From: a virus
Virus record (IMG/VR): IMGVR_UViG_3300046820_000092
Coordinates: 1 to 22,000 of that record
DNA: 22,000 bases
Reading direction: 5' to 3' (one strand)
A model generated the notes under the pieces. It ran no database searches. It saw only the letters and a list, made by a program, of their open reading frames with translations, and was not told the origin of the DNA. Positions 4,364 through 18,063 of the stretch are shown in pieces. Position 1 is the stretch's first letter, and each line of letters opens with the position of its first letter. A program made the position numbers and the translations under genes.

Positions 4364-4702
4364 ACTGAACAACATAAAAGAGCAATGCTTGATGCCCTTG
4401 AGAAGTCATTAGGCGTTGTTACAGCCGCTTGCAAGGCCGTAGGCATAGGACGTACCACTCACTACCTTTGGATGCAGGAGGACGCAGAATATAAAGCAGC
4501 AGTTGAAGGGCTATCAGACGTTGCCCTTGACTTCGCAGAAAGCCAACTCCACAAGCAAATCAAAGACGGCAACTCAACCGCTACCATCTTCTTTCTCAAA
4601 ACAAAGGGCAAGAAGCGTGGGTACATAGAACGCCAAGAGGTAGAGGTAGCATCAGGCAAGATGTTCCAAATAGAGGTGCTTGGGGAAGATTCAAACCAAT
4701 AA
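4355..4702 (+). CDS. terS: Terminase small subunit
   Basis: This 115-residue protein has an N-terminal helix-turn-helix (roughly residues 8-40: LDALEKSLGVVTAACKAVGI then GRTTHYLWM), a central helical part (residues 45-75) and a segment STATIFFLKTKGKKRGY. That last pattern is typical of small terminase/phBC6A51-like HTH proteins. The small subunit recognises phage DNA at the packaging start and presents it to the large subunit, whose gene overlaps its end by 23 bases. The ATG is preceded by aagaatttat. The 5' end is shared in antisense with the tRNA promoter, so transcription from the two strands could interfere. Confidence 0.85.
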   Translation: MDKTEQHKRAMLDALEKSLGVVTAACKAVGIGRTTHYLWMQEDAEYKAAVEGLSDVALDFAESQLHKQIKDGNSTATIFFLKTKGKKRGYIERQEVEVASGKMFQIEVLGEDSNQ

Positions 4703-5837
4703 GGTATTCAACCACCTAAAGCGCAGCGACAAGAAGATAGTCGTTGAGCAGGGCGGCACTCGGAGTGGGAAGACGTACAACATCCTGCTTTGGGTAATTT
4801 TCTATTATACCGACCAACACACGAACAAGACCATCACCATCTGCCGTAAGACGTTCCCTTCGCTTCGTGCTTCGGTGATGCGTGACTTCTTTGACATACT
4901 GCGTAGCCACGACCTGTACCGAGAGGAGTACCACAACAAGTCAAACCACGAATACTACCTGAACGGTAACTTGGTTGAGTTTATATCGCTTGACCAACCG
5001 CAGAAGATACGAGGCCGCAAGCGTGACCTGTTGTACATCAACGAGGCCAACGAGCTAACGTACGAGGATTGGCAGCAGCTCATACTGCGTACCGAAGGCA
5101 GGGCAATCCTTGACTACAACCCTTCGGATGCGTTCCATTGGATTTATGATAAGGTTGTACCACGTGATGACTGCGACTTCTTCCAGACCACGTACATAGA
5201 CAACCCGTTCCTTGATGCGGGTGTAAAGGCAGAGATTGAACGCCTAAAGGAAACGGACGATGACTATTGGCGCATCTACGGATTGGGTGAGCGTGGTATG
5301 AGCCGTGCTACCATCTTCCAGTTCGGAGCAACAGACGTACCCAGCAACGCAAGGCTCTTGTCAATGGGGATGGACTTCGGTTACACGAACGACCCTACCG
5401 CCCTCGTAGCAGTATACGAAGCAGATGGATGCCTATACCTTGATGAGCTACTCTACCAGACGGGGCTAACCAACAACGACATCGCCAACGTGCTGACCTC
5501 GCTGGGTGTAGACCGCAGGAGTGAGGTGTATGCCGATAGCGCAGAACCCAAGTCTATTGAGGAGCTATACCGCAGGGGCTTCAACGTAAAGCCCACCGCA
5601 AAGGGTAACGATAGCGTTAACGCTGGTATTGACATAATGAAACGCTACAAGCTATTCATCACACCACGCAGCAAGAATCTTGAAAAGGAGCTGCGCAACT
5701 ACAAGTGGACAGAGGACAAGAACGGCAACCTGCTGAACAAGCCCATTGATGCGTTTAACCATTGCATAGATGCCGCACGATATGCTATCTTTAGCAAGAA
5801 AAACAACCCCAACTTCGGGCGATATTCAGTACGATGA
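4680..5837 (+). CDS. terL: Terminase large subunit
   Basis: This 385-residue packaging motor has both expected domains. The ATPase has Walker A GGTRSGKT at 25-32 and Walker B LLYINEANE at 117-125. The RNase H-like nuclease has acidic residues in MGMDFGYTNDPTAL (D232), YADSAEP (D286) and HCIDAARYA (D364). It belongs to the PBSX-like Terminase_3/6 group and is near the usual length, slightly short. An in-frame TAG at 4671 and the absence of any ATG before Walker A make the TTG at 4680 the likely start; it follows GAGG by a few bases. It overlaps terS, and its TGA is shared with the following glycosyltransferase start (ATGA), an unusual neighbour for a terminase. Confidence 0.95.
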   Translation: MGKIQTNKVFNHLKRSDKKIVVEQGGTRSGKTYNILLWVIFYYTDQHTNKTITICRKTFPSLRASVMRDFFDILRSHDLYREEYHNKSNHEYYLNGNLVEFISLDQPQKIRGRKRDLLYINEANELTYEDWQQLILRTEGRAILDYNPSDAFHWIYDKVVPRDDCDFFQTTYIDNPFLDAGVKAEIERLKETDDDYWRIYGLGERGMSRATIFQFGATDVPSNARLLSMGMDFGYTNDPTALVAVYEADGCLYLDELLYQTGLTNNDIANVLTSLGVDRRSEVYADSAEPKSIEELYRRGFNVKPTAKGNDSVNAGIDIMKRYKLFITPRSKNLEKELRNYKWTEDKNGNLLNKPIDAFNHCIDAARYAIFSKKNNPNFGRYSVR

Positions 5838-6754
5838 TTTTTGTAGCAGGCAAATTAGGTGGCGTATTCTACCACCGACTCCAAGTACCATACGAAGACC
5901 TTATGCTTCGGGGCTATATGGTCAAGTTCGGGCAGCTTGATGAGCTGGACAAATACAAGGGTGCTATCACGCACCTCGTTGTCAATCGTGGTGTAGCCAC
6001 CAAGAACCACCGTGCGTTTAGAGGGATGCTCAACAAGTACGGCATCAAGCTGATTCTTGACCTTGATGACTGGTGGGTATTGCCACGCCACCACGCCAAC
6101 AGGAACGCTCTTAAAACGAGCGACATCCTATGGACAATAAAGATTGCTGATGAAATCCACACGACCAATCCATTCCTCGCAGAGCAGATACAGAAGGAGA
6201 ACCCATACGTTCCCATCTGGGTACTGCCTAACGCTATTGACACACGCAGAGAGCAATGGACAGATATTGAAAAGGTAGAGGGCTTCAACGTGGGTTATAT
6301 GGGTGCATTGCACCACGATGATGATTTGGCCTACAATCGCATCAATTTAGCTGGCCTTAACTCGTACACCATTGAGTACTACAAAGCCTCGCTAAACGCT
6401 TCTAATGCGTTTGAAAGGGCTGACCACACCACCTACGGCAAGTTGTACAAGCAGATTCACGTCAGTATCGCACCTCTTGCTCCCAGCACTTTCAATAAAT
6501 GCAAGTCCAATCTCAAGGCGATTGAAGCTGGTTTCACCAAGACGTGCATCATTGCGCAAGATATGCACCCCTACACGCCCTTCCTAAACGAGAACAACGC
6601 CATCCTTTGCAAAGGCCCAGCCCATTGGGAGGAGGAACTCAAGAACCTTGACCCAGCAAGATGCGCTGAATTAGCAGAGCAGTTGCATAAGGACGTGCAG
6701 TTCTACACCATCCAGAATATAAACGACACACGCCAGCAATGCTTCGCACAATAA
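5834..6754 (+). CDS. GT-B fold glycosyltransferase (GT4-like), copy 2
   Basis: This 306-residue protein is a paralogue of the gene at 1288. It keeps VFYHRLQVP near the start, GIKLILDLDDWWVLP (D76, D78, D79), VLPNAID, GYMGALHHDDDL and KCKSNLKAIEAGF (K222-F234). The two proteins share the order and spacing of motifs but differ widely elsewhere, so the duplication is old or they arrived separately. It starts on the last bases of terL (ATGA) and its final 16 bases contain the start of the tail-chaperone gene, so it is translated with packaging and tail genes. Candidates for its acceptor are virion protein, modified DNA or a host surface glycan; the sequence does not decide. Confidence 0.8.
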   Translation: MIFVAGKLGGVFYHRLQVPYEDLMLRGYMVKFGQLDELDKYKGAITHLVVNRGVATKNHRAFRGMLNKYGIKLILDLDDWWVLPRHHANRNALKTSDILWTIKIADEIHTTNPFLAEQIQKENPYVPIWVLPNAIDTRREQWTDIEKVEGFNVGYMGALHHDDDLAYNRINLAGLNSYTIEYYKASLNASNAFERADHTTYGKLYKQIHVSIAPLAPSTFNKCKSNLKAIEAGFTKTCIIAQDMHPYTPFLNENNAILCKGPAHWEEELKNLDPARCAELAEQLHKDVQFYTIQNINDTRQQCFAQ

Positions 6755-7386
6755 ACGTCCCCAGCGTATGGGCTGACATCAAGCTCAAGGACTTCCAACG
6801 CTTTATGGGTGCAAACCCAACCGATGAAACGGCTGATGATTTAGCCCTGTCCATCTTCTGCGGTATTGACAAGGATGAGCAGAGCCTGTTCCCCGTGAAC
6901 GAGATTGAGGATATCAAGACCATTATGGCAGGGGTGTTTATCCAGAACCCAGAGTTGCAGCGCTTCGTGAAGATAGGAGGCGTGGAGTACGGATTCCATC
7001 CCAAGCTGGAGGACATCAGCATCGGTGAGTTCGTGGACTTGGAGGAGTATATGAAAGACCCCATCAAGAACGCCACCAAATGGATGGGCATCTTGTACCG
7101 ACCCGTTACAAAGAAGGTATTGAGCCGACACGAGATAGAACCCTACCACCCCGATAAGCACGATGGTGCTGCGTTTGAGGACATCACGATGGATGTAGTG
7201 CAAGGGGCGCTGCTTTTTTTTTATCGTTTAGAGATAGGACTGCAGATATCTTCTCTGACCTATTTGAAACAACAGGGGGAACAAGAGAAGTCCTTGATGC
7301 CCGAAGTGCCTTTGGAAAACGATGGGGATGGTACGCAGTCCTCCATCAGCTTGCTGCAGGGGCTATACAAAATCTTGACAAAGTAA
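6739..7386 (+). CDS. Tail assembly chaperone, short form (gpG-like)
   Basis: This 215-residue protein begins with a VWADIKLKDFQRFMG segment, has GGVEYGFHPKLEDISIGEFVDLEEY in the middle and an ILYRPV motif. It then has MDVVQGALLFFYRLEIGL. I recognise this pattern from Bacteroidota phage proteins that are followed by a second chaperone-like segment. At its 'LLFFY' codons lies a T9 run that permits a -1 shift into a long open frame (see the long form). The short form would continue to the TAA at 7384-7386 with an acidic, poorly conserved end. Chaperones of this type coat the tape measure before tube assembly. The start lies inside the last 16 bases of the glycosyltransferase gene. Confidence 0.65.
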   Translation: MLRTINVPSVWADIKLKDFQRFMGANPTDETADDLALSIFCGIDKDEQSLFPVNEIEDIKTIMAGVFIQNPELQRFVKIGGVEYGFHPKLEDISIGEFVDLEEYMKDPIKNATKWMGILYRPVTKKVLSRHEIEPYHPDKHDGAAFEDITMDVVQGALLFFYRLEIGLQISSLTYLKQQGEQEKSLMPEVPLENDGDGTQSSISLLQGLYKILTK

Positions 7387-7481
7387 CCGAGCTGCCCTTG
7401 TACCAATGCCTGACGTGGATAACATACGAGGCGGATAGGGCAAGACTTGAGCAGACCATATCACGACAACGTACCCGATAA
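6739..7481 (+). CDS. Tail assembly chaperone, -1 frameshift long form (gpGT-like)
   Basis: A join of 6739 to about 7221 and, after a -1 shift at the T9 run, 7221-7481 would give about 247 residues. The -1 frame is open from 7179 to the TAA at 7479-7481 with no ATG or GTG to start it independently. It encodes a protein-like sequence containing FGKRWGWYAVLHQLAAG, then VTELPLYQCLTWITYEAD and ending RQRTR. The W-G-W-Y-..-L-A-G and KLP/CLT pattern resembles the second half of tail-chaperone pairs in Bacteroidota phages. This frame also fills the 109 bases between 7386 and 7496 that would otherwise be empty. The alternative is that one T was lost in sequencing and the gene is a single unshifted frame. 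Confidence 0.65.
7214..7222 (+). other. T9 slippery run for -1 frameshift
   Basis: Nine consecutive T residues read as CTT TTT TTT TAT in the zero frame. T TTT TTT allows tandem re-pairing one base back, and the -1 frame then stays open for 86 codons. Either ribosomal slippage or RNA-polymerase slippage could operate. Confidence 0.6.
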
Positions 7482-7495
7482 GTGGTTTTCTATTT

Positions 7496-7963
7496 ATGAA
7501 GTACGGCTACTATCAAGTGTGTGAGGCTCTGCAATCAGCAGCCGAATCCGCATCATACGTCAACTCGGTAACGTGGGGCAACATCTTTGACGTTGATATG
7601 CGCAAGATGACCCTGTTCCCTCTGTGCCATATCCTCACGGGAACGGCTGAAATCCAAGAGCGCACCGTCACCTACTCCATTGACGTGCTGGTGATGGATG
7701 TGATGGACTACTCCAAGCAAGACCCGAATGTTGAGCCGTACTCGTTTCAAGGCGTAGCCCAGAAGCAAGACATCTACCATCGCAGCCTGTTCACCTTGCA
7801 AGAGATGATTGCCTCAATGCGTAGGGGTGACCTATACACCGATGGCTACCGCTTGGTCAACGACCCCGTATGCGAGCCTTTTGATGAGGACTTTGAGAAC
7901 ACGCTCTGCGGATGGAAATGCACGCTGCAGATTGAAACACCCAACCCAACCATCATCTGCTAA
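7496..7963 (+). CDS. Structural protein, tail-terminator/completion candidate
   Basis: This 155-residue protein has an N-terminal helix, then SVTWGNIFDVDMRKMTLFPLCHI, a beta-rich centre (YSIDVLVMDVMDYS), a helical LFTLQEMIASMRRG and a beta C-terminus with LCGWKCTLQIETPN. Short phage proteins of this shape, with 'G..f.vD..k.tlyPL.H' and 'W...l.i..pn', are common in Bacteroidota phages near the connector and tail genes. The size and alpha/beta layout suit a tail terminator or completion protein, but I cannot confirm it. The ATG is preceded by tctattt. Its TAA overlaps the next ATG (TAATG). Confidence 0.6.
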   Translation: MKYGYYQVCEALQSAAESASYVNSVTWGNIFDVDMRKMTLFPLCHILTGTAEIQERTVTYSIDVLVMDVMDYSKQDPNVEPYSFQGVAQKQDIYHRSLFTLQEMIASMRRGDLYTDGYRLVNDPVCEPFDEDFENTLCGWKCTLQIETPNPTIIC

Positions 7964-12304: not shown

Positions 12305-12450
12305 ATATAGGTTCTTTAATTAACGCTTTGAAGGGTGACCACTACGGAATCTGCGAGGAAATTGAAATCGCAAAGGGCAAGTGGGAAGTCATTGAAAGCT
12401 GGGCAGAAGCAAAAGAGCAAATCAAAAGGCAATGGCGGTTGAGAAAGTAA
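12301..12450 (+). CDS. Small hypothetical protein before the tape measure
   Basis: A 49-residue mixed-charge protein (IGSLINALKGDHYGICEEIEIAKGK, ending in a basic helix QIKRQWRLRK). The frame is open 11 codons upstream, but the ATG at 12301 overlapping the previous stop (ATGA) is the natural start. It overlaps the tape-measure start by 19 bases in another frame. Function unknown; its position between baseplate and tape-measure genes suggests a tail role. Confidence 0.55.
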   Translation: MNIGSLINALKGDHYGICEEIEIAKGKWEVIESWAEAKEQIKRQWRLRK

Positions 12451-17565: not shown

Positions 17566-18063
17566 ATGATATTCCTGTCATACAACGCCCAACAGAGCAT
17601 CACTTTGCCCATCCGCAACTGGAAGTACGGCAATGATGACCTAACAAACTACGGTGACTACTGGCGAATCCAAGCCAAGTTCATCAACAAAGACACCCGT
17701 GAGGTCATCACATACACGCTCGTTGCGCCTACGTTTGATGAGGACACCCGTGAGCTTACGTTCACCTACAACTCCGCCAACCTTGATGCGGAAGTGCCGT
17801 ATGTTATGCGCCTTGAAGACCAACGCTACGCAGCAGGAGTCGCTAACGAATACGAAGACCGAGTTATTGCAGATGCAGGAACGATAGAATCACTATCTTG
17901 CGTAACAACTGCGCTCACCGAATTGGGTGCAGATGATGCAAAGGTGCTGGCGATTGACAAGATTTATATGCTGCCGAGTGGTGATACCATCAGCACATAC
18001 CAGCCCGTGCTTGACACCACCGAAAAAACAATGAACAACGACTTTGTAATCTATGGCGAGTAA
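17566..18063 (+). CDS. Hypothetical structural-module protein
   Basis: This 165-residue acidic, beta-rich protein begins IFLSYNAQQSITLPIRNWKYG, followed by DYWRIQAKFINKDTREV and a second beta block. The C-terminus has IDKIYMLPSGDTIST. No domain is recognised. It begins a new translation unit after the terminator (its ATG follows ttatttagat) and overlaps the portal gene by 11 bases, so it is probably a virion or assembly protein made with the portal. A six-base inverted repeat (ACCCCA/TGGGGT, 17532-17556) lies just before its start. Confidence 0.6.
   Translation: MIFLSYNAQQSITLPIRNWKYGNDDLTNYGDYWRIQAKFINKDTREVITYTLVAPTFDEDTRELTFTYNSANLDAEVPYVMRLEDQRYAAGVANEYEDRVIADAGTIESLSCVTTALTELGADDAKVLAIDKIYMLPSGDTISTYQPVLDTTEKTMNNDFVIYGE

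Follow-up and report, generated by a model that had tools for sequence, protein, structure and literature searches.

Gene content and reading frames of the locus

The window (the whole analysed stretch of 22,000 nucleotides, positions 1 to 22,000 of the IMG/VR virus record IMGVR_UViG_3300046820_000092) carries a gene at 6739 in which a run of nine T residues is followed by an open -1 reading frame. The features of the locus and of its surroundings are as follows:

4680-5837, + strand: large terminase gene, the upstream landmark (PF04466, 3.4e-22)
5834-6754: glycosyltransferase gene (phrog_7162) between the terminase gene and the putative chaperone gene
6739-7386, + strand: frame-0 ORF coding for the G protein; of its 215 aa, 161 aa precede the slip and 54 aa form the frame-0 tail
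7214-7222, + strand: T9 run, the putative slip tract, within ORF 6739-7386 and containing T_TTT_TTT at 7215-7221
7221, + strand: doubly silent T/C position with an invariant T (T in 58 of 58 lineages)
7221-7481, + strand: -1-frame T domain, 86 codons and a stop (switch of codon periodicity; profile match to phrog_38404, E 3e-4; helical model, pLDDT 84)
7223-7386, + strand: dual-coding overlap of the G tail and the T domain, both frames constrained
7496-7963, + strand: next gene of the tail module after T, 155 aa
12432-14165, + strand: tape measure protein, the expected client of the chaperone (phrog_1538, 6.1e-10)

The T9 run spans the frame-0 codons CTG CTT TTT TTT TAT. An earlier note on this DNA had placed the run at these positions, described a -1 frame open from 7179 to 7481 with an 86-codon tail and with neither ATG nor GTG, and let the two frames overlap up to 7386; all of this is exact in the sequence, as is the 215-aa ORF. 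The first TTG of the -1 frame lies at 7398. As the note argued, annotation by start codons would miss these 86 codons, which code for a domain conserved in relatives. The presence of a T9 run is unremarkable in itself: when the window is shuffled with its dinucleotides preserved, 25 of 100 shuffles contain such a run on either strand. The case for a frame change therefore rests on comparison, where the conservation of the run far exceeds chance.

The gene stands first in a series of tail genes extending to the tape measure gene at 12432. Four larger genes separate the two, whereas in lambda the chaperone and tape measure genes adjoin directly. Two further observations concern the surroundings. 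A second gene of the phrog_7162 glycosyltransferase family is located at 1288-2229, and the gene order between 4355 and 20607 is unusual, with terminase, a tail module including the tape measure gene, protease, a probable capsid gene and the portal gene (at 18053) following one another.

Conservation of the T run among relatives

A search with the frame-0 protein returned 42 viral contigs. Forty of these close relatives extend to the site, and all of them keep T9 and its near 3' flank together with an open -1 frame; both frames end at the same places wherever the contigs are not cut short. Eleven contigs from other samples, with 96-99% protein identity to the window, all have nine T, making it very unlikely that the true count is ten and the gene a single continuous one. 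Alignment searches extended the set by hundreds of sites in viral contigs, and by another five in genomes or MAGs of Bacteroidota.

Profile HMMs, applied without use of the run itself, picked out 308 loci with both domains. In 307 of them, T is encoded in the -1 frame. The run measures nine T in 268 loci, ten in 39 and eight in a single one (L193); after dereplication by 400-nt context the numbers are 190, 33 and 1. A T9 or T10 run is thus retained in 307 of the 308 loci at protein identities down to 21-25%, within the reach of searches beyond which relatives with another slip site may lie. Flavobacterium phage 6H (NC_021867; L312:9586-10927, - strand) seems to be one such relative. Its gp10 (191 aa) structurally matches G, and an unannotated gap of 304 nt before gp09 has an open -1-frame stretch like T. 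Phage 6H is without T9 and has a T6 run followed by TAG, so the frame change must work differently there.

Phage collections yielded matches only to two Nonlabens (Persicivirga) phages, P12024L and P12024S (29% identity), which extend across both frames. In 395 genomes of the phylum to which the Dysgonomonas host belongs, only the copy already known was found, which argues that the family resides mostly in free phages.

Coding in two frames

The variability of codon positions was measured in 30 distinct near relatives. Upstream of the tract, the most variable position is the third of frame 0 (diversity 0.35); past the frame-0 stop, it is the third of the -1 frame (also 0.35). In the overlap both third positions are lowered, to 0.15 and 0.18, and next to the tract variation is almost nil. 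Past the run, the codon periodicity of these relatives thus changes over to the -1 frame, in line with the earlier proposal of a plausible domain encoded there, and the intermediate variability up to 7386 agrees with coding by both frames in the overlap. The frame-0 tails that follow the tract have a median length of 58 codons, compared with a mean of 23 obtained by synonymous recoding of T. As the tails are longer than such recoding predicts, the G tail is probably also under selection; a pairwise test of the frame-0 tail in near relatives gave a weaker signal (mean z 1.3).

Ribosomal or transcriptional slippage

The G/GT frameshift is a textbook case of conserved ribosomal frameshifting, and a ribosomal -1 shift needs seven bases only, T_TTT_TTY. 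Every one of the 308 loci has the heptamer T_TTT_TTT in frame. The foremost competing explanation accordingly keeps the same chaperone pair and has GT made by an ordinary -1 ribosomal frameshift on U_UUU_UUU; the known G/GT pairs, including that of lambda, use such shifts (PMC5009743), and the records of HK97 and P2 describe chaperone pairs made in this way. In E. coli, U_UU.U_UU.U shifts even without stimulators, although weakly, and U_UUU_UUC falls within the efficient class of heptamers (PMC4066793).

The two routes make different use of position 7221. In the common phase of the run, this position ends a Phe codon in frame 0 and begins a Leu codon (TTR/CTR) in the -1 frame, so that T or C is silent in both, and a C would leave an intact heptamer, T_TTT_TTC. 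Conservation limited to the heptamer, with T and C exchanging freely at its last base, is not seen: 7221 is T in 58 of 58 lineages (clusters at 70% identity, which, like the lineages in our other comparisons, are not fully independent), as against C in 37 of 87 control sites (43%; Fisher p 1.3e-10), the controls being the remaining sites of these overlaps at which T and C are silent in both frames. The disparity persists with clustering at 50% (T in 18 of 18, C in 12 of 29 controls, p 0.001). The run is moreover found in all three codon phases. Where it starts one base later, it always extends on the 3' side and keeps at least nine T (6 of 6 lineages, versus 6 of 69). The tree displays six phase changes, nearly all in the same direction, and four independent pairs lie on branches with good support; these four to six independent changes are too few for significance alone.

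Two common elements of ribosomal frameshifting were also sought. RNA structure downstream of the tract shows no excess (family mean z +0.2, window z -0.06; pseudoknots not modelled), and a stimulatory hairpin 3' of the tract was rejected on these values. Shine-Dalgarno motifs are not enriched upstream, with SD-like sequences in 7 of 75 cases and in 7 of 75 controls. Both kinds of stimulator are common in ribosomal frameshifting but not obligatory.

Bacterial RNA polymerase slips efficiently on runs of nine (PMC5009743), and in many genomes the avoidance of A/T runs sets in at this length (PMC1088944). The invariant T at 7221, the maintenance of at least nine T and the lack of stimulators together point to selection acting on the homopolymer itself, and an A/T homopolymer of about nine or more residues under selection as such is what programmed transcriptional slippage would lead one to expect. 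Such selection makes slippage by RNA polymerase the likelier route to GT. We consider it somewhat probable that this lineage of Bacteroidota phages produces its GT chaperone by RNA-polymerase slippage at T9/T10, in replacement of the ribosomal switch. An exclusively ribosomal shift appears a good deal less probable, while still a serious possibility: it requires seven bases where nine are kept, and leaves the avoidance of a doubly silent C, the sliding of the run and the lack of conserved stimulators unaccounted for. Ribosomal slippage could possibly act alongside the transcriptional kind, with the heptamer always present, and the Bacteroidota ribosome may itself prefer T at the last base of the heptamer. 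The lambda G/GT logic invoked in the earlier note accordingly holds in one part, a programmed change of frame giving G and GT, which is strongly supported by the 307 loci and by dual coding; its other part, slippage of the ribosome, is not favoured by the comparative data. In the open-access literature we found no report of transcriptional slippage or of a T9 run in a phage tail chaperone.

The window's own group has, in addition, a stem of 7 pairs abutting the tract on its 5' side (7195-7213, + strand). Only 3 of 76 lineages have such a stem, which exceeds the control rate of 0.35% without being family-wide. The stem resembles those hairpins of nascent RNA by which slippage of RNA polymerase is promoted. 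An intrinsic terminator at the T9 run was considered and rejected, since the stem is confined to these 3 lineages and upstream folding does not exceed that of shuffles.

Identity of the G and T domains

The G protein matches the profile of phrog_32199 (E 2.6e-14), which, like the phrog_38404 matched by T, is a PHROG of unknown function. AlphaFold2 predicts residues 1-161 of G with a pLDDT of 95. When 71 chains were compared with this model in VIA-align, Z values of at least 2 were obtained only for the HK97 tail assembly chaperone 2ob9 (Z 2.3, rmsd 3.3, 57 residues), and plain Foldseek searches against the PDB gave no confident match for G and no matching chain for T. Neither protein has a convincing direct match among Pfam and PDB sequences. 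Weak matches, below family thresholds, link 2 of 76 members to Pfam Phage_TAC_7 (PF10109; best 2.4e-3) and 5 of 76 to the tail protein family phrog_166 (best 3.6e-4); the window's own G protein matches no TAC family, and the databases searched name no family for G/T.

The G/GT architecture, the position in the tail module and the weak structure and profile matches make a G/GT-type tail-assembly chaperone the best reading of 6739-7481, and a very likely one. The tail-chaperone pair of the earlier note holds as a functional assignment drawn from these lines of evidence, and not as membership of a named family. It is improbable that the conserved frameshift fusion yields some other kind of protein. 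The lack of a named family, the function-unknown PHROGs, the T fold without a PDB counterpart and a gene that does not adjoin the tape measure gene would suit such a protein; its place in the tail module, the logic of the fusion and the matches to 2ob9 and TAC families would not.

Independence of T and stability of the run

T as a separate protein with a start of its own, or as a product of re-initiation, is highly improbable. The annotation of P12024L does present the end of T as a gene beginning at an internal ATG, but in 69 of 75 lineages the -1 frame lacks an ATG all the way from its last stop to 30 codons beyond the tract, and the conserved residues of T start inside the tract. An independent T gene was rejected for its lack of starts. 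The T stop overlaps the ATG of the next gene as ATGA in 40 of 75 relatives, and with so few -1-frame ATGs this indicates that T belongs integrally to the operon.

A sequencing error or DNA-level phase variation at the run is scarcely credible: homopolymers are prone to error, and in a Dysgonomonas sp. 520 prophage (L149:7968-8723) a T10 run brings G and T into one continuous ORF, but the -1 relation in 307 of 308 loci spans many samples and platforms, and the dual-coding signature also stands against it. Sequencing error was rejected because relatives from many samples keep T9, and phase variation because only 1 of 308 loci has a run length that places T in frame 0. The single 251-aa ORF of L149 is either a fusion that exists in nature or an artefact of assembly; this Dysgonomonas genome has another copy, with T9 and the -1 relation.

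Proposed mechanism and its significance

Conserved coding in two frames and selection on the homopolymer are borne out by the sequence comparisons; that RNA polymerase is the slipping machine, and that G/GT serves as a chaperone, we infer from them. The account that we put forward, and regard as moderately probable, is that of a G/GT chaperone gene of a Bacteroidota tailed-phage family whose GT arises by RNA-polymerase slippage at the T tract. Most mRNA would carry U9 and give G (215 aa). On the T9/T10 template the host RNA polymerase would slip and generate some U10 mRNA, which would be read straight through into a minority product, GT (247 aa), consisting of the G domain and the helical T domain. 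Transcripts with U8 or U11 would meet a stop within a few codons and give a short G. In silico, a U10 mRNA reads directly into the fusion, and U8 or U11 leads to a stop at 163-164 aa. The roles of G and T are known in lambda (PMC5009743); by analogy, coating of the tape measure protein would fall to G and recruitment of tail-tube subunits to T, and neither product would be expected in virions.

If correct, this account suggests that a protein-ratio problem is solved at the step of transcription in a large unannotated family. It also assigns a likely role to two PHROGs of unknown function and brings to light a conserved domain missed by start-codon annotation.

Comparison with known systems

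As in lambda G/GT and HK97 gp13/gp14, an N-domain would be produced from one start within the tail cluster either alone or fused to a -1-frame C-domain. No sequence family common to these pairs and the present one could be demonstrated, however. The slip site here is always T9/T10 and no other heptamer, a 54-codon frame-0 tail overlaps T, and the gene heads the tail module, four large genes ahead of the tape measure gene. P2 E/E+E' is likewise a -1 frameshift pair ahead of the tape measure gene; compared with it, Phage_TAC_7 and phrog_166, G is longer, with 161 aa before the slip.

Transcriptional slippage is described in Thermus dnaX, Shigella T3SS genes, Citrobacter tssM and IS elements (PMC5009743, PMC4256274, PMC1088944). 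These share with the present gene an A/T homopolymer of at least nine residues, an absence of ribosomal stimulators and two products per gene. They are cellular, plasmid or IS genes, whereas ours is a phage gene.

The closest named counterparts are gp40-gp41 or gp38-gp39 of the Nonlabens phages P12024L/S, annotated as hypothetical proteins. They are homologues of G and T with the same T9 and the same -1 relation, situated directly after the terminase gene; they differ in their 29% identity, in a frame-0 tail of 25 codons after the slip and in the annotation of T as a separate small gene. The deposited start of P12024L gp41 (L044:11522-11689) is an internal ATG, so the annotation misses the conserved N-terminus of T (FFLSFRERL...).
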